Positions 14,306 to 30,680 of a stretch of DNA of 64,000 nt are shown here, in pieces. The notes under the pieces were generated by a model, which was not told the DNA's origin, did not search any database, and worked only from the letters and a program-made list of their open reading frames with translations. The stretch is from assembly GCF_000282315.2 (NCBI RefSeq), contig NZ_AKJN02000006.1, positions 806,001 to 870,000 on the forward strand, given 5' to 3'. The stretch's first letter is position 1. Each line of letters begins with the position of its first letter. The position numbers were made by a program, and so were the translations under genes. Source of the DNA: Pseudomonas sp. GM41(2012) (GTDB lineage Bacteria > Pseudomonadota > Gammaproteobacteria > Pseudomonadales > Pseudomonadaceae).

Positions 14306-15154
14306 GGTGATTCCTGAAGACTCTCGAGGTCGTCCGGTCTTCAGAGAGCCTGAAAAAGTGGGCGGCCGATCACTGTCCGCTAGTGCGTCGGACGCGCACT
14401 CTATAGAGCACTGACTAACCAAAAAAAGGCTCAGATCCAACATAAAAAACAGTATCAGATGGCCGCCGTTTGCCTGACTTCGCTTTCTCGACTCGCGGCA
14501 ATTTCTCGACCAATTCTCCACCTCCTGTACAGCATCGCGTTCGCTGTACTGGAAATTCAAACCCACATGGTTGACACCGACCGCCCGCAGGCTTTCGAGA
14601 AACTACAGGATCACGTTGTGCCCGACGCACAAATCCAAGTGACTCGGGCACGGGTGAATGGTTGGGGTGTACGGCCGTTTCGATGTTCTGCTGAGCCGCA
14701 CAGTTCGCAGGCTGCTGCCCGGTTTCCATGAACTTGGACCGATGAACATTTCCATGCCAATAGCCTTCGGACGTGCCGCAGAACATAGTAACGGCCTGCC
14801 TATGAACATATGACATGGCCCACTTGTATAGGCGAAGTCTTCGGTGAGCCCCTCCCTGGGTATTACTTCTCGGGTTCCCGATCGCGGAATGGTCGGGTTA
14901 GCACCATCCCGGGGGCATTGGCTCGCGATTAGATCCCCATCATTCGCCAGCAAGACAGCGCGGCGAAAGGGTTTCAGGTCCTGCGAGCGCAACCATCGCT
15001 ACTGGGATGCTGAGATTGCTACGTCCAAGGAACCCTTGAAGTGGCAGCGAACAGCCAACTGGGCCTCCGACCAACTACGAACGAGGGGGGCTGCCGAGAA
15101 CGAGATGTGCGGGCGTAGAGATCTATTGATAGGTGCAGGCTCCCTCGGAAGCTC
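14306..15154. other. Non-coding or scrambled stretch upstream of the GGDEF/EAL gene
   Basis: No convincing gene was found. Several short open frames cross on both strands, but none shows a recognisable domain or a good ribosome site. The interval contains copy A of a 42-bp repeat (14920-14961). The first 100-150 bp should hold the promoter of the minus-strand GGDEF/EAL gene. The rest looks like joined debris, matching the fragments that follow. Confidence 0.5.
14920..14961 (+). repeat. 42-bp direct repeat, copy A
   Basis: This segment, beginning GGCTCGCGATTAG and ending CAAGACAGCGC, recurs without mismatch at 16221-16262. Sequence on either side of the two copies differs. Copy B directly joins a duplicated piece of the GGDEF gene, so the repeat marks a rearrangement point. 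Source unknown. Confidence 0.85.
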
Positions 15155-15505
15155 AGTCGCGGAGAACTGCTCGACGCTTTCGCGTTTTACCAATTCAATG
15201 CCGGCGAGATCACTGTGAGCGTTAAAGCGGGCCGCCATAACGTCTATTGGGGTGAGTCGCTTTTTAATGCTACCAACGGCATTGCCTACTCCCAGGGCCC
15301 CATGGACCTGGCAAAAGCGCAGGCCAACCCTGGTACTGAGGCCAAGGAGCTCTATCTGCCGCTGTCACAAATCTCGACCCAGATAGACCTCAACAGCAAC
15401 CTTGCATTGCAGGCTCAGTATTATCTGGATTGGGAAGCGTCCCGCTACGCGGAGGGTGGCACCTACCTGGCAGCCAGTGATTATCTGCTCAACGGCCCTG
15501 GGTGA
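15155..15505 (+). pseudogene. DUF1302 outer-membrane protein fragment
   Basis: The frame reads S-R-G-E-L-L-D-A-F then KAGRHNVYWGESLFNATNGI and LYLPLSQISTQIDLNSNLAL. This is the pattern of DUF1302-family porin-like proteins, which are normally about 500-600 residues long. Only about 117 residues remain, from the middle of the family. No start codon with a ribosome site precedes it and a stop follows at 15503-15505. Unrelated sequence lies on both sides. It is a gene remnant within the rearranged zone, not a working porin. Confidence 0.7.
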
Positions 15506-15812
15506 AATCTTTATAGATGCGGTAACCACGAATGGGAACGAAGTCGACAGTCCTTTGGCGAGAGGCAGTTGTGGGAAGCGGGTGCGGATCACGGGCGGGG
15601 CGGCAGAAGATCCTATAAGTGAAGTGGCTGCTTTGTCGAATCCACCCCTTCTGGATCCCGACACCCGAAAGCAAAACGGCATCCCGCCCCTGCTCACGGC
15701 GATACTGGACATCACGTTCAAGAATGACTGCCACAACGTGGGGGCGATCTATTGAGACACCGGGCGAAATCGGCTTCGTACCAGGTGATTGGCAGTTCGA
15801 TAGTCAGATCAT
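15506..15812. other. Interval of unknown origin in the rearranged zone
   Basis: Open frames exist on both strands, for example 15489-15734 on the minus strand, but none could be assigned and none has a convincing start. I see no repeat or insertion-sequence end here. It is probably another fragment of foreign or decayed coding sequence. Confidence 0.35.
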
Positions 15813-16220
15813 TCAAGCAGCGCCTCGACGTACTCTACGTGGCAAGCGAGGACGCAGCGGATTGGCACCCAATTTGACACGATGATCAAGTTCGTTCAGA
15901 ACTTCGCGAGCCTGATAGGCATCCATCTCGATAAGCTGCTCGAACATCTGCAAACCTTCAAGCTTTGTTCCTTCCGTTCGGTGGAGCGTGATTGCAAGGT
16001 CCATGATTTCTCTTCCTGCAAAGACGAGCGCAGATCCCACATTTGTAAGACGGTCTCGCCACAGCTGAATAAGTTGAGTAGCAATTCGAGCCACAAGAAC
16101 CGCATGGCGAGGAAGTAGGTCTCCCAAACGCTCAACAACGTACGGTTCACTGGGCGGAGGTGCATGCTCTATGTTGTCACTGATCGCCTGTAGAAGTCGC
16201 AGGGTGTGCGGTTCTGGCGA
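15813..16220 (-). pseudogene. Hypothetical protein fragment lacking its N-terminus
   Basis: The minus-strand frame is open from the edge of the 42-bp repeat (about 16220) to a TGA at 15813-15815. The roughly 135 residues look like real protein, for example PEPHTLRLLQAISDN, PPPSEPYVVERLGDLLPRH and FAGREIMDLAITLH. It is predicted helical and soluble. No ATG with a ribosome site is found; a TTG lies at 16127. The frame appears to have been cut by the rearrangement that joined the 42-bp repeat at 16221. The family is not recognised. Confidence 0.5.
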
Positions 16221-16262
16221 GGCTCGCGATTAGATCCCCATCATTCGCCAGCAAGACAGCGC
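16221..16262 (+). repeat. 42-bp direct repeat, copy B
   Basis: Identical to 14920-14961 over 42 bp. Its last base abuts the GGDEF gene copy that starts at 16262, and its first base abuts the truncated hypothetical frame on the left. The two copies are 1.3 kb apart in the same orientation. Confidence 0.85.
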
Positions 16263-16340
16263 CGGGACGAACCTGCTGGGTCATACGCTTCGCCACCTCG
16301 ATCAGCACCTGATCGCCGAAGTAGTGCCCGGTCGAATCGT
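16262..16340 (-). pseudogene. 79-bp copy of an internal piece of the GGDEF/EAL gene
   Basis: Bases 16262-16340 match 13170-13248 at 78 of 79 positions; the single difference is in ATACGCT(G/T)CG. The orientation is the same as in the intact gene. The encoded piece covers the GGDEF-domain segment from STGHYFGDQVLIEVA to QQVRPG. It is too short to function. The copy joins directly to the 42-bp repeat on one side and to an MFS transporter remnant on the other. Confidence 0.85.
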
Positions 16341-17250
16341 AGCGGCATTGGCACTCGGGGCCTTGCAAGTCGTGGTGCAGCAACTGAACTTTGCCCAATT
16401 CAGCGATTCCCCCCTGCTGGAGGGGCTTACCGCATGCGGCCTATTGTTGCTCGGCGTATTCGTATGGCAGCAGTGGAATCATCCGCGACCGTTGTTGCGT
16501 TTTCACGGATTGAAAGAGGCGACCTTTCGCACCGGCTTGATGCTGTATGCACTTTATTATTTTATCAACAACGCCCTCGGGTACCTGATCTCCCGATTCC
16601 TGCAAGGAGGGCTTGGATATCCCGTGGAAAATGCGGGACACCTGGTGGGTATGACGTCCCTCGCATCTCTCGGCGGAGCCCTGATCTATTTCCGTTACGC
16701 CGGTCTTGTCAGCCACAAGAAATGGATCTTCGTCCCAGGTTTTCTGCTTACCGCTTTTATCGGCGGATGGATGGCAAGCATGCCGCCGTATGCCAGTACT
16801 TCCTGGCTATTGCTGCCTCTGACCCTGCGCGGTCTGCTGCTGATGTTTGTTGCCTTGCCGGTGGCCAATATCGCCTTTCAGAGCTTCGCAATGGAGCTGT
16901 ACCCCCACAGCTATCGCATCAAAAATATCGTCAAGCAAATGGCCTACTCGTTTTCGACAGCCACGATCATCGTCTTCGAACAACATCGCGTGGCTATTCA
17001 TCAGACCAACCTGTCGACAAATGTCAGCGCCAACAATCCAGTATTTGGTCACGCGATGGAGAAGTTGACCCATCACTTCGAGCAGGCGGGCCAAAGTCTA
17101 TCGGCTGCCCATGATTTGGCGCTTTCGCAGATCTTGAAGCTGGTTGCCGACCAATCTATCTTCATGAGTTATCTCGATGGGTTTCAGTTCATAGCGATCC
17201 TGTCGACAGGGGCCGCGATATTTGCACTGTGGCAACGCCGGATTGACTGA
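16341..17250 (+). pseudogene. C-terminal half of an MFS drug-efflux-type transporter
   Basis: About 300 residues with seven or so hydrophobic segments remain (for example ACGLLLLGVFVWQQ, GYLISRFLQGG, GALIYFRYAGL). The pattern resembles the distal half of a 14-span DHA2-like pump. The normal length would be near 500 residues, and the N-terminal half is missing. The frame can be opened at a GTG at 16324, but that codon lies inside the GGDEF copy, so the junction is artificial. It ends with a normal stop at 17250. A truncated, probably inactive gene. Confidence 0.7.
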
Positions 17251-17619
17251 TGCACCTCTCCCCCAACCCACACTTCTGGCGGATTGCTGCAATCAGTGAA
17301 CAGCCACCTTGGTGGCAAGCGACCGCAAGACCTACTTATCGATGCGCCAATATGCGTTGTGGAAGCGGCCGTGGATGAGGGGCCGGCGTCATCCACGGCT
17401 AATCAACCTTTCTTGCCGAGCCCGAACATCGGACCCCATGCCGCTTTACATCACCGTGCCGGCCCGTTTCGGCGCAAACCTGAGCATCACACGCATATCA
17501 TGGAGTGCCCCCGCAGGCTTGCAAGTGTAGTTTCATATCAAGCAAGCCTCTGATCGCGAGCTTTCAACTCCGGGCCCTGGAGGTTAACGTATCGCACCGT
17601 TTTCGTGGAGCGCCTGCCT
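17251..17619. other. Gap with a perfect 11-bp inverted repeat
   Basis: No gene was identified. GCCGTGGATGA (17368-17378) and TCATCCACGGC (17389-17399) form a perfect hairpin with a ten-base loop but no T-run. This could be a weak terminator for the MFS remnant or a protein-binding site. The last 50-100 bp should contain the promoter of the large gene at 17620. Confidence 0.45.
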
Positions 17620-20600
17620 ATGCCGTACCTCAATCTAGACCGACGCTTCGTCCAACGGAGGAAATACGACCAGGAGGAGTTACTGCGGTCAGACCTCAAC
17701 GGTCGTAAATTGTCATGGGGTGAGGTTCTGGCAAGCCGTTATGCGATTATCGTCGCGCCGGCTAACTTCGGGAAAACCACTGAACTCAAAGAGCAGGCAA
17801 AGAGTGAACGCGCGGCGGGGAAATACGCGGTGTTTATCGAACTGCGCAAAGTGCTTGACCGGGGTGCCTTTGAGGACTCACTGATCCCGTCTGAGGTCGA
17901 TGCCTTCGAGGCCTGGCAGCAGGTTCCTGATGCGCCAGTCACCCTGTTCATCGATTCCTTGGATGAGGCTTCGCCCAAGCAGCGGGCCGACCTGCATCAT
18001 GCCCTGAAGAAGGTCCTCAAGGCGGTTCAATGGCCAAACAGTAACACCCAGTGGATCATCTCTACACGCCCGGCCGTACTCTCTCAGGATGTTTTGAGCC
18101 AGCTCTCAGAGATTCTGGATGTTCCCCTTGAGGTCACCTCCAAGGAGGAGGCCGACTTGGGAGGGCTGTTTGATGATGAAGCGAACAAGGCCATAACCAC
18201 CCGTCTAAGCAGCAGCCAGGCCGCCTTGTCCATTTTCTCCCTTGCTTCGCTAACCTCAACCCAAGCCAAAACCTACCTACAGCGTGTACAAGGGGTTGAT
18301 GATGCAGCCACACTCCTCGAGGTAGCCCACAACAAGGGCCTGCCTGGGTTCACGAAGAGCCCTGGCGGACTTGCGATCCTTGCCCACCTCGATCTGGCAA
18401 ACCGCCAACCAGAGTGTCTAACGGACGTCTACAAGGGGGTGGTCCAGGCTGTCGAACTCCAACAAGGACGCGACGATCGCCTTTCAACTGCTGGCACTCC
18501 CTCTGCACAGGTGGCGGTTGTAAGCAGAATTGCGGCAGCCTCAATGGTTTGTCAGCGGATAAACATCGAGATGCCCTCGGAACAGTTCGGCGTGGATGAC
18601 GCTGTGCTTTCCGCGCGACTGATTGCGGGTACCCAACTCTCCGAGTCGGGCTTGCAGCAATTGCTGACATCGCAACTATTCATTGATGCTGGCCACCACC
18701 AGGTCAAGCTCTACCCTGAGGAACTTGTTCCATTTCTTGCCGCGCAACATTTCGCCTCGCGGGTTCAATCACCCGAAGATGCCAAACGCCTGGTCGATGC
18801 GTTTTCCTGGGACGCCCCTACTGGTGAGCGTGGCGTACAGCGTCGGCTGCTGCCGATTTTGGGTTGGCTGGCGACGTTGAGCGCCTACTGCCGGGCAGAA
18901 CTTTTGCCGCGCGACCCGCAAGTGGTCGCCTTTTTTGGTGACTTACGTAACCGGGACATCCCTATGGCTGATGCCCACGAGGCGATCAGGCGAAGTATTC
19001 AACTCGTGGCCACACAAGGGGATCGCCTTGGGCGCAAACATTACGATCTCACACCCGAAAACTACTGGCAGGTTGGCGCAGACTGCAACCTGCCATTGAT
19101 CAGCGAGCTGTTCGAGCAATATGGTTCAAATCATCGCGCCCGAAGTGCGCTGATCAATATTGCGACCTACAGCCAATCAGACATTCTGCGCCAGCAGGTG
19201 CTGAAGGCGTGTCAGTGTGACCTCGCCCTGCTCATGAAACAACGACAGGGCCTCGACCTGTATTACCTGCTGGACCTTGGCGTCAACGAGGACCTTCAAG
19301 GCATCGCAACCGCGCTGATGGAGGAAACTGATCTACATGAAAGCCTGATCTCCGCCTCGATTATCCGCCTGGCCTGGTCGCACCTGACGGTGGCCCAGAT
19401 CGTTACCTTGGTCGAACGACAGTTTGACCGGGGTCAAGGAGCTTACCGCCTGACCTCCACTATCACTGGTCCGGTTCTCGACGCTGCGGATGATCAGCAG
19501 GCCTATAAGCTGGCGCGTTCGCTGGTAATTCGCTTGGTCCGGGACCGTCATCTGCCCGACGCCCGAAAGAAAGTCTATTCGGACTTCTCCGATCGTAGGA
19601 TCAGTTTTGTGATCGATGTACTGGCCTCGCTTATCACTCGTTTAGGGATCCGCTATGAAGCCCGCGTAGTTCTCCTTTGCCTCATCATCCGTCGTTTTTT
19701 CCGCGAATGCTTTTATGGTTCGAGTGATTTTTCAGCTCTGCGCACAGCGCTTGGCCAGAACCCGGCGGTACGCTTGGAACTCCTTCGGAAAATCCTACAG
19801 CTAACAGTCCCAAATGCTGAATTGCTCATGCAAGCAATTTTTGGCTTTGGCTTTATCTGTGAACCCACCTTGGAGGACGCCACGACGCTCATGTCAGACC
19901 CGCTGCGGTCCGCGATTCTGAAATCTCAAGCTAACACCACGGCTGGCAAAAAGCCCCGGCCGACGGCCAAGGAAATTCGACAGAGTCGCTTGACCATGGA
20001 CGCCACATCACTGGCAACCCTGCACAAAGAGATTGAGCTGATCCGTGACGGCTCTGGACGTCAGACAATTGCCTGGTTGGTTAGCTGGCTTTTGCAGGCA
20101 AACACGTCGTCCCGCTACAGCGACGTTAGCATCGAGCCCGTGGCGGCGGTCGCTGGCGCTGACCTGGCAACCGCATTCAAGGCCGGGCTGTCCACGCTTT
20201 GGCGCGATCAACTGCCAATGTTTAAGGAGGATGAACCAAGGTCTACGTACCACATCACCGTGGCTGGCTTGCTGGGCCTATGCCAAGAGCTTCGCGACGG
20301 CACCGATTTGCCGACCTTGTCGGGGAGCCAGGTAGGACAGGCCATTCAATACGCTTGCTTTGAAATCAACGGATTTCCTAAATGGTTCTGGCCATTGGTC
20401 GACGCACACCAGGCTGTGGCGATTGTCGAGTTACAGCAGCTGATCGCGCGCGCGGATCGGGGGCCAACCTCCTTCGAACACGCAGAAGAGTTGCTTGTTG
20501 AATTAAAAAACGCACCGGAGAGCATTCAGACAGCGTTGGCGCCGGCGGCCTGGTCCTTTCTTCTTAAACAGCCACGGTGCAGAAATCACACGACCGAGTC

Positions 20601-21843
20601 GCTCCTCAATCTGGTAAGCAATGTTCCTGGCACAACAACTCAAGACGTGATTGAGGCGCAGGCGTCGAGCCGACTTCAGGCGACATTCAGCACGGCCATG
20701 CTTACTGAATCAGGCGAGAGCGTCATTCAGCCCGCTCTACTGGAAACAGTGGCACAAAGTGTCATGTGGGGGGCTTTCTGGCTTACTACCCATCCAGATT
20801 CCTTCAAATCCCATCTTGAGCGGTGGCTGGTTGACGCCCGTCCCCAAGCACAGAGTTTTGTTTTCGAACTGGCGGCCTACCTCGGAAAGGACTATGGGTC
20901 GAAAGTGATCGGGCTCGCCAAACAGAGTGACGACGGGGTTGACACACTGGCCGCCCTTTATAGATGGACCTTCGGTATCGTCCGACCTGAGAACGACATC
21001 GAGCATCCTGAAGGAAGTGTGTATACGCCAGGTAATCGGGATGCTGCCGAGCAACTGCGTGATGCGCTCATACCCGCCATTGCTGCAGCAGGGTCGACAA
21101 GAGCCTATGAAGCCCTTGAGGCAATTCGCAAGGTTGCGGGCGACGAGCAAGTACAGTACCTGAGCAGTGTTTTATTCGACATGCAGGAAGCACGCTTCAG
21201 TCGTTCGCCAGTATTGCAACGGGATTTTGACAAGTTCGATGACGACTTCAGGCAGCCAGTCGCCGGCACACTTTCGCTGGCGCTGGCGGTCCAGGAAGAC
21301 CTTCTGGCCGTGAAGTACAGCATTGAAAAAGGTGAGTTCAGTCTTCGTCGGTTCTTCAGCGCCGTGAACTTTTCTCGCATCAGTACCGACAAGGAAGGCC
21401 TCGCGTTGGAAGCCGATTTTCAGGCCTTGCTTGGGAGTGAAATGAATCACCTCGCGGGGGCTCGTTATACCGTCACTCGGGAGTCCGAGACAGCAGAGGC
21501 CACGCGACGGGATGTGCTTTGTCGGAAAGGTTCAGACTACGCCTCCATCGAACTCAAGATGTCCATGCGCTGGACCGTGCCCCAGTATTTGGAAGCACTC
21601 GAGCACCAGTTGGTGGGGCAGTACATGCGCAACCGCAATGCAACGACAGGCTTCCTAGTCATTGTGCTGCAGGAGAAAGATCGAAAATGGCATTACCCTA
21701 CAGGTTCCGATCGAATGACATTCAGTGAGCTCATTAAATTGCTTCAGACCCGGGCTCTTGAATTAGAAGGGCAGGATCGCAGGCGATTTATTCGAGTGAT
21801 CGGGATCGACGCGACACCGCCGAGAAGCTTTCGGGACGCCTGA
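17620..21843 (+). CDS. Giant STAND/NACHT-like ATPase with C-terminal PD-(D/E)xK nuclease motif, candidate defence protein
   Basis: The start is the ATG at 17620, with GGAG nine bases upstream; the frame also opens at a GTG at 17605. The protein has 1407 residues. Near residue 46 is a P-loop, APANFGKTTEL, with the first glycine of the usual motif replaced. Near residue 107 is a NACHT-style Walker B, VTLFIDSLDEAS, then a sensor-like WIISTRPA. About 1000 residues of helical, repeat-like sequence follow. Near the end, D1298, E1311 and K1313 form a D-x12-E-x-K nuclease motif (YASIELKM), followed by a QLVGQY helix. The order ATPase-repeats-nuclease suggests a single-protein anti-phage sensor. It stands alone among mobile-element genes. 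Confidence 0.7.
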   Translation: MPYLNLDRRFVQRRKYDQEELLRSDLNGRKLSWGEVLASRYAIIVAPANFGKTTELKEQAKSERAAGKYAVFIELRKVLDRGAFEDSLIPSEVDAFEAWQQVPDAPVTLFIDSLDEASPKQRADLHHALKKVLKAVQWPNSNTQWIISTRPAVLSQDVLSQLSEILDVPLEVTSKEEADLGGLFDDEANKAITTRLSSSQAALSIFSLASLTSTQAKTYLQRVQGVDDAATLLEVAHNKGLPGFTKSPGGLAILAHLDLANRQPECLTDVYKGVVQAVELQQGRDDRLSTAGTPSAQVAVVSRIAAASMVCQRINIEMPSEQFGVDDAVLSARLIAGTQLSESGLQQLLTSQLFIDAGHHQVKLYPEELVPFLAAQHFASRVQSPEDAKRLVDAFSWDAPTGERGVQRRLLPILGWLATLSAYCRAELLPRDPQVVAFFGDLRNRDIPMADAHEAIRRSIQLVATQGDRLGRKHYDLTPENYWQVGADCNLPLISELFEQYGSNHRARSALINIATYSQSDILRQQVLKACQCDLALLMKQRQGLDLYYLLDLGVNEDLQGIATALMEETDLHESLISASIIRLAWSHLTVAQIVTLVERQFDRGQGAYRLTSTITGPVLDAADDQQAYKLARSLVIRLVRDRHLPDARKKVYSDFSDRRISFVIDVLASLITRLGIRYEARVVLLCLIIRRFFRECFYGSSDFSALRTALGQNPAVRLELLRKILQLTVPNAELLMQAIFGFGFICEPTLEDATTLMSDPLRSAILKSQANTTAGKKPRPTAKEIRQSRLTMDATSLATLHKEIELIRDGSGRQTIAWLVSWLLQANTSSRYSDVSIEPVAAVAGADLATAFKAGLSTLWRDQLPMFKEDEPRSTYHITVAGLLGLCQELRDGTDLPTLSGSQVGQAIQYACFEINGFPKWFWPLVDAHQAVAIVELQQLIARADRGPTSFEHAEELLVELKNAPESIQTALAPAAWSFLLKQPRCRNHTTESLLNLVSNVPGTTTQDVIEAQASSRLQATFSTAMLTESGESVIQPALLETVAQSVMWGAFWLTTHPDSFKSHLERWLVDARPQAQSFVFELAAYLGKDYGSKVIGLAKQSDDGVDTLAALYRWTFGIVRPENDIEHPEGSVYTPGNRDAAEQLRDALIPAIAAAGSTRAYEALEAIRKVAGDEQVQYLSSVLFDMQEARFSRSPVLQRDFDKFDDDFRQPVAGTLSLALAVQEDLLAVKYSIEKGEFSLRRFFSAVNFSRISTDKEGLALEADFQALLGSEMNHLAGARYTVTRESETAEATRRDVLCRKGSDYASIELKMSMRWTVPQYLEALEHQLVGQYMRNRNATTGFLVIVLQEKDRKWHYPTGSDRMTFSELIKLLQTRALELEGQDRRRFIRVIGIDATPPRSFRDA

Positions 21844-22031
21844 GGATCCAGAGGGCCGGCCCGGTATCGTGGCCGCCACTCAAATGGTCGGCCGATCTCC
21901 TATGCGTGCAGTCTTCCTTCGCCCATGAAGGGTTCATCGACACGCCATCCTTCGATGATTTCGCCAGCGAGCGGCAGCTCACCCCGGAGAATTGGCATGG
22001 CCCTCAAGGTCGTGGATTACTGGAAAGATCG

Positions 22032-22056
22032 TAAGCGTCCGGCTACCGGACGCTTA
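22032..22056 (+). terminator. Hairpin after the large ATPase gene
   Basis: TAAGCGTCCGG, loop CTA and CCGGACGCTTA form a perfect 11-bp stem. A short T-rich run (TTTTC) follows six bases later. It lies 189 bp after the stop of the STAND ATPase gene and is the first strong hairpin downstream, so it could end that transcript. The delayed, weak T-run keeps confidence moderate. Confidence 0.5.
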
Positions 22057-22081
22057 TGCAGTTTTCACACAGCGACGTGTT

Positions 22082-22158
22082 GGAAGTAAATATCCAAAAC
22101 CGGAAGGAGCTACACGGTTTTGGATATTTACATGCCAGAAATTTCGATATTTACTTCC
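22082..22158. repeat. Nested perfect inverted repeats (17-bp and 13-bp arms)
   Basis: The inner pair is 22086-22102 (GTAAATATCCAAAACCG) with its exact complement at 22115-22131, spacer 12 bp. The outer pair is 22082-22094 (GGAAGTAAATATC) with its exact complement at 22146-22158. The left arms overlap, so the same 9 bp can pair with either right arm. The AT-rich core differs from the GC-rich surroundings. This could be a recombination or transposon-end site, or a two-state RNA structure. Confidence 0.8.
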
Positions 22159-22183
22159 GGGTAGTTGAAAGGCCAGAAACGAC

Positions 22184-22206
22184 GAATCCCGCTTTAGGCG
22201 GGATTC
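22184..22206 (+). terminator. Terminator-like hairpin
   Basis: GAATCCCGC, a five-base loop and GCGGGATTC form a perfect 9-bp stem, followed by TCAG rather than a T-run. It stands 26 bp after the nested inverted repeats. Strength as a terminator is doubtful; it may be part of the same structured region. Confidence 0.35.
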
Positions 22207-22591
22207 TCAGCCGTCGATTGCATGCGTTCGACGGGGCAGGACGCTGTTACCTGGCACTGGGCCATCTGACTTTCATCAGAAGAGGGGTGCGATCCGAAGA
22301 TCCCTGTAACCACCCTGTGGTTCACGCCTAGGCGCAGATGAACAATAGTCAATCCATAATCGCTGTGTCAATCCTGCTGTCACCACCTAGATTCACCCCC
22401 GATCATCCCTCAGCCCCCGGTTCCGAGGGCTCTTAGCCGCAGAACTGGCTCTTCGCCGGATCGCTACGAAGCGGAAAACGGGCTGCGGCGATCATGGCTT
22501 GATCCAGTCGGTGCGGCTCAACTGGCATAATCCGTATGCCTATCCAATAAGGAATGAGGCCGTTAAGGCAATTCAGTCGCTCATGGACTGA

Positions 22592-22617
22592 AGCTGAACC
22601 TCAGGTTCAGTTCAGCT
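22592..22617 (-). terminator. TGAAC-rich hairpin downstream of tnpT
   Basis: Two nested palindromes overlap: AGCTGAAC / GTTCAGCT (22592-22599 and 22610-22617), and CTGAACCT / AGGTTCAG (22594-22601 and 22603-22610). They lie 65 bp beyond the stop codon of the minus-strand tnpT-like gene. They may end that transcript or be bound by a protein; no T-run is seen. Confidence 0.35.
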
Positions 22618-22681
22618 GATTGCTGCATCGGGATCGCAGGCTGCAAGCCGGAGTGTGGAATGGCCGCTGATGGCTGTGGAT

Positions 22682-23548
22682 TCAATCGGTCGATACTACG
22701 GATTTTCGGGATTTGGGCTTACGCTTGACGGCGGGAACCTGACGCACCTTCGTCAATTGTTGTTCTAGGGCTTCGGCGCGGGCCTGCTGTGCCGCAGTCA
22801 ATTGCCTAGATTGACTGAGCTCGTTTTGAGTCGACTCCAGCCGCCGTTGTAACTGCTCGACCTGCCGCCCGGTGGCTTTGAGTTGGATCATCATCGCTTT
22901 GCCCTCCTCCCTAGCGTGATCGACCTCGCGGTAAGCGCGATTTTCGACGCCACGGACGTAGCTTTCCTGGGCGATGCGCTCCTGCTCCATCTTTAGCCGC
23001 AGCGCCTGCATTTCCTGCTGGAGTGTCTGACTTTGTTGCTGAGCCTCGCCGCGCTCGCGCAACAGGTCTTCACGCTGTTGCTGCAGGTCCTCGATCTGAG
23101 TCTGACGCTGCGCCAGCAACAACTCGAGGTCAGCCAGTCGCGTCTCGACGGTTAGGCGTCCCGCCACTGCCTCCACCGTTTGCTGCCGAAACTGCGCCGC
23201 ATCCTGACGCGCCTGCTCCTCGACGGCAGCGACCCGCTCACGCTCTGCGGCGACTACCTGTCGTTGTTTGTCCAATGCCTGTTCGGCGACACCTTGCGCG
23301 AGAAGGATTGCCTGTTGCCACACCGCAACAAAAGCTTGTGACACCTCGTTCGGTAATGCCGGCAAGCGGATCTCGCCACTCAGGCGTTCGGCCAAGCGTG
23401 CCCACCACTGATCGAGCAGGCCACCGACCCGCGCCGGACTGCCGCGCCCCAGTTCCAGGCGGACACGTTCCACCGTTGGCCGTTCCCCACGGGCCAACAC
23501 CGCATCCGCGGCGGCAAACACGTCGTTTTCCGGCACCCCTACTGCCAT
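22682..23548 (-). CDS. tnpT: TnpT-like cointegrate-resolution accessory protein (KfrA-type N-domain, coiled coil)
   Basis: The protein has 288 residues. The first 60 or so form a KfrA-like DNA-binding domain (NDVFAAADAVLARGERPTVE, then RVRLELGRGSPARVGGLLD). The rest is a long coiled coil rich in Q, E, R and L, ending in a basic tail (KRKPKSRK). It is divergent from a tyrosine recombinase gene with a 78-bp interval holding palindromes. This matches tnpT-rst-tnpS of Tn4651/Tn4652, where TnpT stimulates TnpS-mediated cointegrate resolution at rst. A plasmid KfrA-like protein is the alternative, but the arrangement favours TnpT. Confidence 0.75.
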   Translation of the reverse strand: MAVGVPENDVFAAADAVLARGERPTVERVRLELGRGSPARVGGLLDQWWARLAERLSGEIRLPALPNEVSQAFVAVWQQAILLAQGVAEQALDKQRQVVAAERERVAAVEEQARQDAAQFRQQTVEAVAGRLTVETRLADLELLLAQRQTQIEDLQQQREDLLRERGEAQQQSQTLQQEMQALRLKMEQERIAQESYVRGVENRAYREVDHAREEGKAMMIQLKATGRQVEQLQRRLESTQNELSQSRQLTAAQQARAEALEQQLTKVRQVPAVKRKPKSRKSVVSTD

Positions 23549-23626
23549 GCCTCATCTCCGGCTATATTGGGTCTGATAATTAAAGATTATCCGACGTTAT
23601 TTTTTGAATAATGGAATTATCATACG
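23549..23626. other. Candidate rst recombination site between tnpT and tnpS
   Basis: The AT-rich 78-bp interval contains GATAAT-N5-ATTATC (23575-23591), a perfect dyad of the size expected for a tyrosine-recombinase core. A second dyad, ATAAT-GGA-ATTAT, is at 23608-23620. The TnpS start codon follows six bases later. In Tn4651-type elements the resolution site and both promoters lie in exactly this position. Confidence 0.6.
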
Positions 23627-24715
23627 TTGAACGTACTAAATATTACAGATCAATTTCCCTTGGTCGACGAAACCCCACTGGACCTGCTTGTTCTCGCCGA
23701 AAACTCCCAGCACGCTGCGGCGGCGTTTATCGCCGCCGGCACCGCGGCCAACACCGTGCGCAGCTATCGCAGCGCCCTCGCCTACTGGTCGGCCTGGCTG
23801 CAACTGCGTTACGGCCAAGTACTCGGCGATGCGCCACTCCCCGTCACCGTGGCCGTGCAGTTCGTCCTCGATCATTTGGCCCGGCCGTTGGCCAACGGCG
23901 ACTGGGCGCACCTGTTGCCGCCGCCAATCGACGCGGCGCTGGTCACCGCCCGGGTCAAGACCCGGTTGGGCCCGCTGGCGTTCAACACGGTCAGCCACCG
24001 TCTGGCGGTGCTCGGCAAATGGCACCGGCTCAACGAGTGGGACAGCCCGACCGAAGCAACGGCACTCAAGACCCTGCTGCGCGACGCGCGCAAAGCCCAG
24101 TCGCGCCAAGGCCTCTCAGTGCGCAAGAAAAGCGCGATCGTGCTCGAGCCGCTGCAGGCGCTGCTCGCCACCTGCGACGATGGCGTACGCGGGATTCGCG
24201 ACCGCGCCCTGCTGCTGCTGGCCTGGAGCGGTGGCGGTCGCCGGCGCTCGGAAGTGGTCGGCCTGCAAGTCGGTGATGTGCGCCAACTGGATGCCGACAC
24301 CTGGCTGTACGCCCTGGGGGCGACCAAGACCGACACCGGCGGCGTGCGTCGGGAGAAGCCACTGCGCGGCCCGGCTGCGCAAGCACTCACCGCGTGGCTG
24401 GACGCAGCGCCTGCCGAATCCGGCCCGCTGTTTCGTCGGCTGTATAAAGGCAACAAGGTCGGGGCCACGGCCTTGTCGAGCGACCAGGTGGCGCGCATTA
24501 TCCAGCGCCGCGCACAGCTCGCGGGGCTGGACGGTGATTGGGCCGCGCACAGCTTGAGATCCGGCTTTGTCACCGAAGCCGGCCGTCAGGGCGTGCCGCT
24601 GGGCGACGTCATGGCCATGACCGAGCACCGCAGCGTGACCACGGTGATGGGCTACTTCCAGGCGGGCACCCTGCTGCACAGCCGAGTCACAGACCTCCTC
24701 AGCCCGAAAACCTGA
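23627..24715 (+). CDS. tnpS: TnpS-like tyrosine recombinase (cointegrate resolvase)
   Basis: The protein has about 362 residues from the TTG at 23627; another TTG at 23660 is possible and the start is uncertain. An N-terminal SAM-like core-binding domain (TVRSYRSALAYWSAWLQ) precedes the catalytic domain. The arginine is in WSGGGRRRSEVVGL. The second box is HSLRSGFVTEAG, the histidine is in TEHRS, and the tyrosine nucleophile is in VMGYFQAG. All catalytic residues are present. The divergent tnpT-like gene and the palindromic interval identify a Tn4651-type resolution module. No Tn3-family transposase gene is found nearby. Confidence 0.78.
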   Translation: MNVLNITDQFPLVDETPLDLLVLAENSQHAAAAFIAAGTAANTVRSYRSALAYWSAWLQLRYGQVLGDAPLPVTVAVQFVLDHLARPLANGDWAHLLPPPIDAALVTARVKTRLGPLAFNTVSHRLAVLGKWHRLNEWDSPTEATALKTLLRDARKAQSRQGLSVRKKSAIVLEPLQALLATCDDGVRGIRDRALLLLAWSGGGRRRSEVVGLQVGDVRQLDADTWLYALGATKTDTGGVRREKPLRGPAAQALTAWLDAAPAESGPLFRRLYKGNKVGATALSSDQVARIIQRRAQLAGLDGDWAAHSLRSGFVTEAGRQGVPLGDVMAMTEHRSVTTVMGYFQAGTLLHSRVTDLLSPKT

Positions 24716-25636: not shown

Positions 25637-27088
25637 TCAACCCGCAGCAACAAACGGCGACGGACGCCCTACCTTGATGTGATCACCATACCAAAAGCGT
25701 AGAAAGGTCGCTGGCTCGGGTACGTAGCACCAGAACTCAACGGTCTCATGCGCGCGAAAGTTGCTCTGGTCGCTGACGCGCAACCTCATGCCGCATCGCT
25801 TGTCCGTACAGCGGGACAGCAACGCGGGGCAAGCGTGCCAGCAGGTCAGATCGGAACTCAACCGAGAACCAGCACCAATGACGCTGATGGCTTCCGCACC
25901 CAACACTAGTGAGGTGCTGCCCGACAGCTCAACGGAAAAACGATCCAAATCTCGATTGCAGGCCGTGCACATAACTTCGATGCCGGCCCAAATTGCGTAG
26001 AAGTGCGTTATCCAGAGTGCCATGATCTGACGAGGCGTGGACGGACGGTCATGCCAGTTCGGCGCAACAAGATTGATTCCGTCCCCCTCTGCGAATCGAT
26101 AGCGCAACGCGGCACACCATGCCAAAAAGGCCGCGGAAACCACACAGGCGCATTGGCAATCGAGGCCATGTCGACTCCGCGCAGAAAGGCTCGACAGATA
26201 CCTGTAGCAGCCCGCATGTGGCCTCACGTAGGCGTTGTACAGGTAACGCCGGACGTATCGGTACAACAGAAAGACTTGCCGGGCACTGAAGTCAAAACCA
26301 GCGGCCTCTTGGGCGCTGTAAGTCGCCCGGGTCATTTCGTATCGGGGAATCGGAATCAGGTTGATGGCATTGGGGGCGGGAAACCCTCCCACGGCGGCAA
26401 CTGCTGAATTGAGTCCGATGTTGATCAGCCGCTCTTCTTCGTCGATGTTTCCGCCTTTCGCCTTGTTCGCATGGAGCGAAGAAATTGCATAGTTGACCAA
26501 GGGGTCCTGCATCGCTCCCGCCGCATCGAGCCATGCTTCTATCCTCGCGCCCAACTCCGCATACTTACGCTTCTGGTCAGGGGTGGCACAAATCAAGCGA
26601 ACGGATCCAGCGGAGTCAAACAAAAAGTGACTGCAACGCATCTTGCTGCTGAAGCCGGCCGGCGCATGGGTGACAACCAGTCCACGTACGATGGCGTTGC
26701 TGCAGTGTGAGCAAGGCTCAAGCAGTTCGTTATGCCAAGGACACCGTTTTATGATCTGGAGAAAAAAGAAGACCGAGTGATACCCGACGGCCACACATTT
26801 TGCGCAATGCCGGATGCATACCGTGGACATCCGCGGACTGCACTCCACCAGGTTGTCGATAAAGGCTCGTCTGATTGCAGGATATGGCAGGGACAGCGCC
26901 GCCGCCAGTTTCGTGTCGTCAACATCACAGGCCCTCCAATACTGGGAGGGATAGCTTGGCTGTTGGGTGCGGAACAGCTCGCTGAGTAATTGCAGGGGCG
27001 ATGCAAGGTTCAACGCGCTCGCTTTAAGGAGAATCCCCCAAGACGACTCAAAAGGAATATGGTTGAATCGCCCATACGTGAGCTTCAT
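25637..27088 (-). CDS. tniQ: TniQ/TnsD-like target-selection protein
   Basis: The protein has 483 residues. The TniQ zinc-binding pattern is visible near residues 95-129: HCAKCVAVGYHSVFFF, then RCPWHNELLEPCSHC. Proposed ligands are C95, C98, C116, H119, C126 and C129. A further HACPALLSRC-x-D-x-x-C stretch near the C-terminus resembles a second zinc site. TniQ/TnsD proteins bind an attachment site or partner and recruit the TnsC ATPase. The gene starts one base after the tnsC stop codon. Length fits the TnsD class, which recognises a fixed chromosomal target, better than short CRISPR-associated TniQ. Confidence 0.78.
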   Translation of the reverse strand: MKLTYGRFNHIPFESSWGILLKASALNLASPLQLLSELFRTQQPSYPSQYWRACDVDDTKLAAALSLPYPAIRRAFIDNLVECSPRMSTVCIRHCAKCVAVGYHSVFFFLQIIKRCPWHNELLEPCSHCSNAIVRGLVVTHAPAGFSSKMRCSHFLFDSAGSVRLICATPDQKRKYAELGARIEAWLDAAGAMQDPLVNYAISSLHANKAKGGNIDEEERLINIGLNSAVAAVGGFPAPNAINLIPIPRYEMTRATYSAQEAAGFDFSARQVFLLYRYVRRYLYNAYVRPHAGCYRYLSSLSARSRHGLDCQCACVVSAAFLAWCAALRYRFAEGDGINLVAPNWHDRPSTPRQIMALWITHFYAIWAGIEVMCTACNRDLDRFSVELSGSTSLVLGAEAISVIGAGSRLSSDLTCWHACPALLSRCTDKRCGMRLRVSDQSNFRAHETVEFWCYVPEPATFLRFWYGDHIKVGRPSPFVAAG

Positions 27089-28060
27089 CTACTGGTTGCT
27101 TGGAGCTTGTTGCATGAAGGACACGAACTCAGCAATCAGGCTGGAATCCACGGCCTCCTTGACGATCCCCTCAGTGAGCTTGAACACTGAGCAGTCCATG
27201 TGGCGGGACCTGATCAAGATACGTTCGATCACGCGGAACATGTGTTCCATGGGTAACACGCCGGGACCACTCTCCCCTGCCACGCTCATCAGCCCAGACC
27301 AGATCAGCTTATTGTATTGAGCAAGGCGAAAACTTGCCGCGAAGGCTTCGGGCAAGAAGAATTCGGTGTAACTGCAGCCAGAGTCCAGCGGAAACTCTTT
27401 ATTTGCATCATACTCATTGAGCATGGATTCGAAATCGGCTTCGGACATGCAACCGTTGAACCGAATCGGCTCACACAAAAACCGGGCAACCAAGTTGGTG
27501 GCTCCCAAACCAAAGAAAAAATGTCGTCTTTGGAGTATTTCTTCCTGGCCAAACCCCAGCGTCGTCATGCTGATGCCGTGCATTTCCAAACGGTTATGAA
27601 TCACCAGCAGTTCATTCCAACTGTCTGTCGACAGCAACTGGTTTTCGTCAATAATAATTACGAAATGACCACCGCCCCGGGACTCCACCTCGGCACGCAC
27701 ATGGACAATAAATTTCTCCATTAAGGCGCTGTACGATTCTTTTTGGTTTTTGAACAGGCCTACCTCAACGACCAAGTCCCGGATCAGCTTGGCGGATTTG
27801 TTCCCGTCTGCGGTGTGATACAGAAAGTACTTCTTGGGGAATTCGGCCGCCAGCAGATCCCTAACGATTCTGGCACACCGGGTTTTACCCATTCTCGGCT
27901 TCGCGTACAAAAAAGTGCCCGTATGCCTCGAAAAGACCCGCTCGCGAAAAATCGAGTATACTTTGGCGATCATCGGAGTAATCAACGTATAGAGAGTGCT
28001 TACAACCGGATGACTCTCTAGGTAAAGCTCCCGATCAAAACCATTGTTGGTAGTATTCAT
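27089..28060 (-). CDS. tnsC: TnsC/TniB-like AAA+ ATPase
   Basis: The protein has 323 residues and one AAA+ domain. Walker A is AKPRMGKT at residues 53-60 and Walker B is FVIIIDENQ with D139-E140, resembling the DEAQ-type box of TnsC/TniB. The first glycine of the P-loop is replaced by alanine. TnsC regulators form filaments on DNA and pass target information from TniQ/TnsD to the transposase. The gene overlaps the tnsB stop by four bases (ATGA) and is followed without a gap by tniQ. Confidence 0.8.
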   Translation of the reverse strand: MNTTNNGFDRELYLESHPVVSTLYTLITPMIAKVYSIFRERVFSRHTGTFLYAKPRMGKTRCARIVRDLLAAEFPKKYFLYHTADGNKSAKLIRDLVVEVGLFKNQKESYSALMEKFIVHVRAEVESRGGGHFVIIIDENQLLSTDSWNELLVIHNRLEMHGISMTTLGFGQEEILQRRHFFFGLGATNLVARFLCEPIRFNGCMSEADFESMLNEYDANKEFPLDSGCSYTEFFLPEAFAASFRLAQYNKLIWSGLMSVAGESGPGVLPMEHMFRVIERILIRSRHMDCSVFKLTEGIVKEAVDSSLIAEFVSFMQQAPSNQ

Positions 28061-30066
28061 TCCTTAAACCTCCTCTGCTTGAGCAATGCGTTCAGATCAG
28101 GAACCTTTTTGCCAATGATCAATGCGTCCGAGAACTCCAACGGTTTTCCCTCGATAGCCGGCACAGGGGCGGGGCGGGGTTCGGCAACTACCAACGGCAC
28201 TCCCCCTTCAGTCGCTACCCGTTTTGCCTCGGTTACCACATCGGCCGAAATAACAACGGACTTCTTGCTCTTTGAAGCACTTAGGAAAGCCAGGTAAACC
28301 AGAACCGGGTCTTGCTCGAGGCTGACCTGCAGCGTCCTGTCCGCCATTTTTGAGTTGATGGCTTTACGGGTTCGCATGTCGTGCTTGGTATCAGCCCATT
28401 TCCCTACCGCAACCAGGTTGCCAAGCAAAAAGCCTTCCATTGTGAATGCCGTTACGAACCTCAAGTCGTTCTCATCAATATGGAGGATAATTTTTTTCCC
28501 AATCATGGGCCATGCGTCGTACAAGTAGTTGGAGGTGTAATGAACCCTCAAAAACTGAACATACGGATGGCGTCCGTTTTTTGTGTTACCGCGAACAGTG
28601 ACGATTTTCTTCAGTTGCAATATCGTAACTCCTCTGTCACTAGCGTCAGGTAGTGTTCTTACCAAGAAATGATGCCGGTTCTGCTCCAGCTTTTGCCGGA
28701 TAAAATCCAATGGCGACAGAAAGAACAACCCTTCACTGATCCTCGCATTGTGCTGCGTGATCTCAACGTCAAGAAGGTGCAGCAGGTGTTCCGCAAGTAC
28801 TGGAGCCTGTGTGGCATACTCTTCGCAATTATCTGCACGCCCGTTGTTCGGGCCGTGTCCGGTTGTGCTTAAAAGCCGGCAGAACACATTGTTGGAGAGC
28901 AGGCCAAACAAGTGCTCTACATATGGTCGCCTTTCAAAGTGCCCTGGAGGGCCGAGTGTCCAAAAATAGCCCAACTCCTTTCTGGCGGCATTCGTCACTT
29001 TTTCAGACAGATGCGCCAACGCCCCATCAAACTTTACGACTGTAAACAAGGCACCTTTACATTCTTGAATGACTTCATTTGGTAATCCGCTACCTTCGGG
29101 ATATATAAGTCCTTCAATAACTGGCTCTGGCCTGGACTGTCCCACTATCGAATAGCGCATGACATCAATCACGTCGGTGGCAGAGACCTCACTTCTGAGA
29201 ACGCACTTGTAAGCCAAGACAGCTTCGGATGCGCAATCTAACATGAGAACAACCCATATCCGGCTAATTCTCTTGGCGACGTAGGTACCGTTTGGAGCCT
29301 TCATCAGCACCGAGGAATGGCTGTCAAATTTGTACCCATCGATCTCAACGGCATCGAAGGGCTCGGTATAGACCAACCCGGGCCTCGGCCCTTTTCCGAC
29401 TGCCATGTGGGCCTTCGCCTCGCGCTCGCCCTCGTTGCGCACCACGCGACTGAAGTTACCTTCCCGAACATTTTTGATGTGTTCGTATACTGAGCGCTGC
29501 CCCAACCATTTGGTATTAAATGGCCACTCAGGTTCTTGAATATCGAACTCTTCGAGTAGGGAAAGGAAAAATCTATGCAGCGTCTTTGGTTTGATTGCGT
29601 ATTCGTTTTCAGACTCATGATCCACATGCGAAAGAATTTTCCGGTTGAACCGCTTTTCCAGTTCCGGATATTTGGCAAATACCATGCCCAATGCACCTGC
29701 ATGACCGCCTTGCGCTTCCGAAAGTTTTGGGGCCACCGATTTGGTTCTGCCGTAGTTTTTTATGTGCAAGTACGGCAATAACGCGCGACAGCCCCACCAC
29801 ATGCCATCCGGCGCCGACTGCAGACAGCGTGCGGCATAGTAGTTTAGGCACTGCCTGTTTATGCCCGTTGCGGCGACGATGTCCTTAATGGGCACTCCCT
29901 CGCAGTAGAGTTTCATAGCTAGAGACTTTAACTGAAAATCCTCTAACTCAACTTCCGTCAGCCCAACCAGCTCTGGCTTTTGCCAGTCATGAAAGGTTCC
30001 AAACGCTATCGCCCTTTTGCTTAAGGATCCGACCCAGTTGTTAGCCTCAACGTCTTTATTGGTCAT
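28057..30066 (-). CDS. tnsB: TnsB/TniA-like DDE transposase
   Basis: The protein has about 669 residues when started at the ATG at 30066, which overlaps the tnsA-like stop codon as ATGA. N-terminal helix-turn-helix DNA-binding sequence (GVPIKDIVAATGINRQCLN, about 57-75) precedes an RNase-H-like integrase core. Candidate catalytic acids are D243 (AVEIDGYKFD), D347 (VVKFDGALAH) and E384 (PYVEHLFGLL). A Mu-type beta-barrel region and a C-terminal tail for ATPase contact follow. It should cut and join the 3' ends of the element. All three acids appear present, so it looks active. Confidence 0.82.
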   Translation of the reverse strand: MTNKDVEANNWVGSLSKRAIAFGTFHDWQKPELVGLTEVELEDFQLKSLAMKLYCEGVPIKDIVAATGINRQCLNYYAARCLQSAPDGMWWGCRALLPYLHIKNYGRTKSVAPKLSEAQGGHAGALGMVFAKYPELEKRFNRKILSHVDHESENEYAIKPKTLHRFFLSLLEEFDIQEPEWPFNTKWLGQRSVYEHIKNVREGNFSRVVRNEGEREAKAHMAVGKGPRPGLVYTEPFDAVEIDGYKFDSHSSVLMKAPNGTYVAKRISRIWVVLMLDCASEAVLAYKCVLRSEVSATDVIDVMRYSIVGQSRPEPVIEGLIYPEGSGLPNEVIQECKGALFTVVKFDGALAHLSEKVTNAARKELGYFWTLGPPGHFERRPYVEHLFGLLSNNVFCRLLSTTGHGPNNGRADNCEEYATQAPVLAEHLLHLLDVEITQHNARISEGLFFLSPLDFIRQKLEQNRHHFLVRTLPDASDRGVTILQLKKIVTVRGNTKNGRHPYVQFLRVHYTSNYLYDAWPMIGKKIILHIDENDLRFVTAFTMEGFLLGNLVAVGKWADTKHDMRTRKAINSKMADRTLQVSLEQDPVLVYLAFLSASKSKKSVVISADVVTEAKRVATEGGVPLVVAEPRPAPVPAIEGKPLEFSDALIIGKKVPDLNALLKQRRFKE

Positions 30067-30680
30067 GTCCGGCACTTCCATTGGGTATAGCGACCAAATG
30101 AAGGCTCTTTCGTTAGATCAATCTCTATAAGTCCGGCAATGAAATGGCGGATCAAGACTCCGCATATTATGGGTGGGGCGATAAGCGGGGCGTTTCTAAG
30201 CACAGCCTGAACATCTCCAGCTCCCAGTGATACTTCAATTGCACGCACGGCATTTGAAGCTGCCGTACATGCAGATCCCCTGATCGCCGCTGCATATGCC
30301 ATCGCTTTCATGGCCTTGATAGCCAAAGGTGCCTTTGCCAGAAGCTGACTCCGTGAAATACGAATGGTGCATCTCTCTTCGCTGCCTGAAGGTTCGTCTA
30401 GATCCGAAAAAACCACTTCAGACACACTTCCTGATTGTTTTTTCACCAGAAAATCGAAGCCATCCCCGCCTTCAGACTGGCTAAATTCTACTACGTCTAA
30501 ATCAATCTCTAGGAACACCACCCAGTAAATTAGAGCGCTGTCAGACGGCAGTACTAAATCTCTATTCAGCTTGACGCTATACACGTACCAAAGGTTGCTA
30601 CTTCCATGTCCGCGCGCTCGCGCTTCCTGCAGAATCCTTCTTCTGTGCTCTTGCTTGAGAGAATGTTTGCCCGCGCTCAT
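30063..30680 (-). CDS. TnsA-like protein with degenerate nuclease site
   Basis: The protein has 205 residues and is first in the tns operon, in the tnsA position. The core reads YWVVFLEIDLDVVEFSQSE, then GFDFLV, then VSEVVFSD. TnsA endonucleases usually have a glutamate about eight residues before the LE-x-D step, an aspartate in the DFLV strand, and a lysine in EVK. Here only the aspartate is clear: the glutamate position holds leucine and EVK reads EVV. It may therefore be a structural partner of TnsB without 5'-end cleavage. The family call is by shape, order and short motifs, so it needs profile confirmation. Confidence 0.55.
   Translation of the reverse strand: MSAGKHSLKQEHRRRILQEARARGHGSSNLWYVYSVKLNRDLVLPSDSALIYWVVFLEIDLDVVEFSQSEGGDGFDFLVKKQSGSVSEVVFSDLDEPSGSEERCTIRISRSQLLAKAPLAIKAMKAMAYAAAIRGSACTAASNAVRAIEVSLGAGDVQAVLRNAPLIAPPIICGVLIRHFIAGLIEIDLTKEPSFGRYTQWKCRT

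Follow-up and report, generated by a model that had tools for sequence, protein, structure and literature searches.

A HyoA-like NACHT protein of Pseudomonas sp. GM41(2012), probably an anti-phage receptor, and its family's apparently exchangeable C-terminal nuclease

A 64,000-nucleotide stretch of the genome of Pseudomonas sp. GM41(2012) (contig NZ_AKJN02000006.1, positions 806,001 to 870,000), referred to here as the window, contains a gene for a large protein in which a NACHT/STAND ATPase at the N terminus is followed by a long variable middle and then a C-terminal PD-(D/E)xK domain, an order assigned from profile matches, predicted fold, and conservation. We consider it likely that this protein is a single-gene anti-phage immune receptor of a HyoA-like branch, with inverted polarity (ATPase, sensor, nuclease). 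The role in defense is suggested by homology and by the neighborhoods of relatives. New here is the C-terminal nuclease of the family, which looks like an exchangeable effector slot and whose place is taken in one Pseudomonas clade by the Septu proteins PtuA and PtuB. Feature coordinates within the window are given in Table 1.

The open reading frame (ORF) runs from an ATG at 17620, preceded by GGAG at 17607-17610, to a stop at 21843 (1407 residues); an in-frame GTG at 17605 is an alternative start (1412 residues). Residues of the window protein are counted here from the GTG, so that D1303, E1316, and K1318 are D1298, E1311, and K1313 from the ATG. A single NCBIfam model matched the protein: NF058534.1, antiphage_HyoA (E = 8.2e-145), labeled "NACHT domain-containing antiphage protein HyoA." The match covered profile positions 1-711 and 841-1429 of 1430, with the NACHT first and the nuclease last, and its 484.3 bits fall below the curated cut-off of 1200 bits for a HyoA equivalog. 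The domain order and the invariant residues described below are shared with proteins above that cut-off, while the window protein is only 18 to 21% identical to 16 HyoA-type proteins and occupies a deep separate branch in the tree. Judged by these comparisons, it is a HyoA relative on a deep branch and not a HyoA equivalog. A preliminary description of the window had proposed a single-gene defense system; that the gene is probably one, in what looks like an accessory region, was borne out, but the kind is not an undescribed one, since NCBIfam already names a family, antiphage HyoA, that is homologous over the full length.

Conservation was assessed in an alignment of 35 full-length HyoA-type proteins, comprising the window protein, 28 other nuclease-bearing proteins, and 6 without the nuclease. 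Fragments and split genes (e.g., L023/L133, L024/L132, L028/L054, L029/L055, L097-L100, and L109), EruA-like and other distant relatives (e.g., L027, L030-L040, L072, L073, L075-L087, and L101-L108), repeat fetches of one gene, plasmid hits, and phage-record hits were left out. L055 (5832-9826) is an EruA-like ORF of 1200 residues whose nuclease domain lies in a second frame that overlaps the first, either a frameshift or a split effector gene, and L132 is an in-frame fusion of a remnant with other coding sequence.

G56-K57-T58, D117, D120, E121, and R155, the last of which we take to be a sensor-1-like arginine, were invariant across all 35 proteins. The first P-loop position is glycine in just 3 of them. 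The preliminary description had noted the missing glycine and supposed that ATP use might differ; the glycine is indeed absent, but unusual ATP use does not follow, since its absence is a family trait. The fourth Walker A position does set the window protein apart from HyoA, being asparagine there and in its two close relatives and glycine in the other 32 (once lysine). The model of the N-terminal region was weak (predicted local distance difference test [pLDDT], 58.7); its best VIA-align match was NLRP3 (Z 12.9, 208 residues, root mean square deviation [rmsd] 3.7), with NLRC4, NOD2 (Z 12.4), Avs4 (Z 10.9), and Avs5 (Z 10.0) as further matches, and Foldseek placed NLRC4 best (E = 5.7e-8) with NLRP3 also at the top. 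Pfam NACHT did not match the window protein, which counts against NACHT membership, and was matched by 6 of the 19 members of a family alignment at E ≤ 0.1 (best, 0.0006). The protein nevertheless has the Walker A GK[ST], the acidic Walker B, and, on the weak model, the NACHT fold of a NACHT/STAND NTPase.

The C-terminal domain was modeled over residues 1220-1412 with 4 sequences, and the best of five models was taken (pLDDT 75.5, predicted template modeling score 0.77; the other four, 35-52). Its layout is helix, three strands, helix, strand; D1303 immediately precedes strand 2, and E1316-x-K1318 lies on strand 3. E1269, E1293, D1303, E1316, K1318, Q1335, and Y1340 were invariant in all 29 nuclease-bearing proteins, the window protein included; together with the ATPase residues kept in 35 of 35, this conservation is therefore more than chance. 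VIA-align placed BamHI first (Z 8.8, 147 residues, rmsd 4.4), with a CdiA-CT toxin (4g6u; Z 8.6, 128 residues, rmsd 3.2), OkrAI, and BglII level with it, and lower rows included Can2, Card1, McrBC, EcoRV, and HamA, among others. Of the 50 rows shown, most are, by our assignment of fold class, restriction-endonuclease-type enzymes; three are RNA polymerase chains. VIA-align itself notes that models lacking a clear match often reach Z scores of 7 to 8, and the fold assignment therefore depends on both the series of related enzymes and the invariant residues. Foldseek results were modest, with a McrBC chain best (E = 9.6e-4), then Holliday-junction resolvases, and caspases further down. Avs4 was among the structure matches of both the N- and C-terminal models. 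The predicted alpha-beta core and the conserved D...ExK thus point to a PD-(D/E)xK nuclease.

The tie between BamHI and the CdiA-CT toxin bears on the substrate, as CdiA-CT-type toxins that cut tRNA exist. It is conceivable, though doubtful, that the C-terminal domain cuts RNA (such as tRNA) instead of DNA and that the output is translational arrest. A Septu system is reported to cut tRNA-Tyr (PMC13096335), and Septu genes replace the domain in one clade. However, many other rows of the structure search are DNA enzymes, and a shared fold says nothing of substrate.

Between the two domains, residues 471-800 are 29 to 39% identical to a relative in Ramlibacter alkalitolerans, versus 34 to 60% in other stretches, and such low conservation is as expected for a sensor. 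Of the 91 residue differences from a 94%-identical orthologue in Pseudomonas sp. GM49, 37 lie within residues 501-800; because synonymous changes are also frequent there, these differences are not evidence of positive selection. Over the whole gene, the ratio of nonsynonymous to synonymous substitution rates (dN/dS) against the GM49 orthologue was 0.25, and by this measure the gene is therefore under purifying selection.

The preliminary description correctly located the ORF and its motifs, the three nuclease residues among them, and was upheld in its assignment of an N-terminal NACHT/STAND ATPase and, on a predicted fold, of a C-terminal PD-(D/E)xK domain. It had also held that the domain order is the reverse of that in Avs proteins, which have an N-terminal effector, STAND, and a C-terminal sensor. 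The order is indeed reversed. A STAND ATPase is common to both, but membership in Avs (AVAST) was rejected on domain order: the nuclease is C-terminal, and there is little room for an N-terminal effector, because Walker A starts at residue 51. The order is likewise opposite to that of bNACHT25 and bNACHT32 (clade 6 bacterial NACHT proteins), which combine a NACHT with a PD-(D/E)XK nuclease domain and have the nuclease N-terminal and the sensor C-terminal; the N-terminal DNase of bNACHT25 is required for defense, and bacterial NACHT proteins are described as carrying their effector N-terminally and their sensor C-terminally (PMC12169576). By analogy with bNACHT25, a phage component would bind the variable middle, the NACHT would exchange nucleotide and oligomerize, and the clustered C-terminal domains would become active and cut nucleic acid (DNA or RNA), with the result that infection would be stopped or the infected cell killed.

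Six of the 35 full-length proteins have no C-terminal nuclease, and what stands in its place differs. Four from Pseudomonas (L049-L052) end just ahead of it; in all four, the NACHT frame overlaps the next gene, ptuA (with 14 bases of overlap in L050 and L051, taking their listed starts), whose product PtuA (PADLOC, 1026-1069 bits) is followed by PtuB (409-428 bits). In L089 (6010-9936), on a prophage-like IMG/VR contig between virion-type ORFs, a hydrophobic segment replaces the nuclease (mean hydropathy 2.84 over 19 residues, whereas the other 34 proteins do not exceed 1.23 within their last 120 residues) and is likely a membrane helix. The sixth, L115 (5273-9559), carries a short C-terminal motif that resembles the N terminus of the next small ORF and that, to our eye, recalls amyloid-type signaling motifs. 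A midpoint-rooted FastTree tree built on the shared core nested the PtuAB clade among nuclease-bearing proteins (support, 1.00) and placed L089 elsewhere among them; the position of L115 was not resolved. The tree suggests that the nuclease was replaced separately two or three times; the nuclease would be the ancestral state. The four PtuAB cases count as one event because all belong to one Pseudomonas clade.

The association was also examined from the Septu side. PtuA lay directly downstream in none of the 28 fetched nuclease-bearing loci, although in L048 (G277) a PtuA-like gene lies at a distance of about 5 kb. With the L050 PtuA as query, 25 of 348 Pseudomonas genomes matched at E ≤ 1e-40, and the four best matches (55 to 100% identical) were precisely those of the four HyoA-linked loci. 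From 16 of the remaining 21 genomes (34 to 44% identical), a stretch of about 11 kb was fetched (6.3 kb in one case), and a HyoA-type ORF was found in none of these stretches; one of the 16 loci is that of G277, whose nuclease-bearing HyoA sits just beyond the fetched stretch. The literature search found no paper pairing PtuA with a NACHT protein. The window gene itself differs from Septu in having its own nuclease domain, and PADLOC scans of 7 window proteins gave no match to PtuA or PtuB, nor was there a PtuA match at E ≤ 1e-40 in the genome of the window. We give about even chances to the broader proposal that HyoA-type NACHT proteins are an inverted-polarity immune receptor class with a swappable C-terminal output slot, filled by a built-in nuclease, by PtuAB in trans via an overlapping operon, by a membrane helix, or by a short motif shared with the next gene; Septu would then be the effector arm of a receptor resembling nucleotide-binding leucine-rich repeat (NLR) proteins.

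At E ≤ 0.001, the NF058534.1 model matched 37 of 298 genus genomes (9 above cut-off), 37 of 398 phylum genomes (7 above), and 20 of 369 class genomes (5 above); these sets overlap, each includes the genome of the window, and many matches are partial or weak. A profile of three proteins (window, GM49, and the Ramlibacter relative, which is 43% identical) gave, besides the genome of the window, only partial matches scoring no higher than 156 bits, which came from 12 of 348 genomes. Viral-contig scans returned 2 relatives when the family alignment was the query, whereas two single proteins used as queries returned none. A NACHT gene in two "Acinetobacter phage MD-2021a" records was not used as a case of phage carriage; the annotated stretch of one record looks bacterial.

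The surroundings of relatives point toward defense in several cases. The next gene after the Ramlibacter relative (L002, 9377-22841) encodes a DRT1a reverse transcriptase, and a type I restriction subunit is close by, so that the locus is likely a defense island; HamA and HamB adjoin relative L046. DRT1a and Hachiman are anti-phage systems. Of 10 hand-picked neighboring ORFs of relatives scanned with PADLOC, 4 matched at E ≤ 1e-4 and 6 did not. L088 adjoins an integrase-like ORF; this name and that of the virion-type ORF at L089 were assigned by us by eye from sequence.

Around the window gene, the region between conserved flanks looks accessory. The left flank is common to five relatives (G005, G110, G118, G141, and G143) up to about 14.5 to 14.8 kb; on the right, sections of the flank match relatives again beyond about 32 kb. 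No clean empty site was found among the five, and flanks that shared a contig were widely separated (about 0.5 Mb in G005, 0.36 Mb in G110, and 55 kb in G143). At the left border, the segment 13170-13248 recurs at 16262-16340 (98.7%) and 14920-14961 at 16221-16262 (100%), and an EmrB-like transporter gene (16324-17250) is truncated at its 5' end, which suggests that this border (13170-17250) is rearranged. The rearrangement, duplicated fragments, and truncated transporter would suit a degraded or non-functional passenger gene, but with 1407 codons open, active-site residues conserved, and a dN/dS of 0.25, that explanation is very improbable.

On the right lie genes consistent with the mobile setting that the preliminary description had outlined (22.7-30.7 kb). 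We take the four-gene set to resemble Tn7/Tn5053-type transposition genes. Only its ATPase has a strong Pfam match; the 28057-30081 product is 31% identical to a plasmid protein annotated with a Mu transposase C-terminal domain, the other two were assigned through gene order alone, and Protein Data Bank (PDB) searches with the four proteins gave no match. A similar integrase and transposition-like gene order is found on Pseudomonas aeruginosa plasmid p12939-PER. In GM49, 17397-22043 is kept at 94.8% and the KfrA/integrase stretch (22043-24237) at 85.7% DNA identity. These neighbors, their retention beside the GM49 orthologue, and the presence of relatives in 48 of 72,556 plasmid records would fit a protein that uses the same NACHT-nuclease logic against plasmids or other mobile DNA, or that guards its own element. 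We regard this as improbable, as the named family is antiphage and some relatives sit in prophage-like contigs (L088 and L089) or beside DRT1a or Hachiman genes.

Table 1. Features of the window discussed in the text (window coordinates; residues counted from GTG 17605)
Feature	Position	Strand	Evidence
HyoA-like NACHT protein gene	17620..21843	+	NF058534 E 8.2e-145, 484 bits; dN/dS 0.25 vs GM49
Walker A APANFGKTT, residues 51-59	17755..17781	+	GKT kept 35/35
Walker B FIDSLDEA, residues 115-122	17947..17970	+	D117, D120, E121 kept 35/35
R155, arginine in STRP downstream of Walker B	18067..18069	+	Invariant 35/35
Most variable stretch, candidate sensor region, residues 471-800	19015..20004	+	Identity to Ramlibacter relative
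C-terminal PD-(D/E)xK nuclease domain (predicted), residues 1241-1412	21325..21840	+	Predicted fold, conservation
Predicted catalytic D1303 (D1298 from ATG)	21511..21513	+	29/29
Predicted catalytic E1316-x-K1318 (E1311, K1313 from ATG)	21550..21558	+	29/29
Q1335 and Y1340 (QxxxxY)	21607..21624	+	29/29
KfrA_N-domain protein	22682..23548	-	Pfam PF11740 2e-20; stretch also adjoins GM49 orthologue
Tyrosine recombinase (site-specific integrase)	23627..24715	+	Pfam PF00589 3e-18; 74.6% identical integrase on p12939-PER
Four-gene transposition-like set	25637..30680	-	AAA_22 7.4e-11 for 27089-28060; other evidence in text

Several results weigh against an anti-phage receptor of this kind. Besides the weak N-terminal model and the score well under the HyoA cut-off, no PADLOC model matched the window protein, and PADLOC on 6 right-hand neighbors (this side only) found no PtuA/PtuB or other convincing defense model. 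The nuclease alignment gave no significant match to a known nuclease among Pfam and PDB sequence profiles. A search of a collection of 84,980 species, which reaches close relatives only, found just 2 elsewhere. No paper describing HyoA's anti-phage role came up in the literature search; the DefensePredictor paper was considered as the source of the name and rejected, "Hyo" and "Eru" being absent from the part of its text that was searched. Beyond the NCBIfam match, Pfam, PADLOC, PHROGs, and PDB sequence searches of the window protein gave nothing significant or decisive. Neither finding that the preliminary description had named as refuting it turned up: no known non-defense family emerged, with none at cut-off in Pfam or NCBIfam and nothing significant in PADLOC or PHROGs, and a restriction-endonuclease fold was predicted at the C terminus. 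Taken together, the window protein is a real and probably functional member, on a divergent branch, of a kind that already has a name.

Further work is best directed at the C-terminal output, which looks exchangeable, and especially at the NACHT-Septu operon of relatives. If the proposal is true, one sensor chassis would drive unrelated weapons, and a NACHT family with the effector last, replaceable by the Septu pair, would separate sensing from killing. The NACHT-Septu cases would be natural chimeras for asking how the NACHT switch activates its output, and they raise a testable question: can an NLR-like sensor command Septu, given that no such gene accompanies it in the 16 other loci examined?

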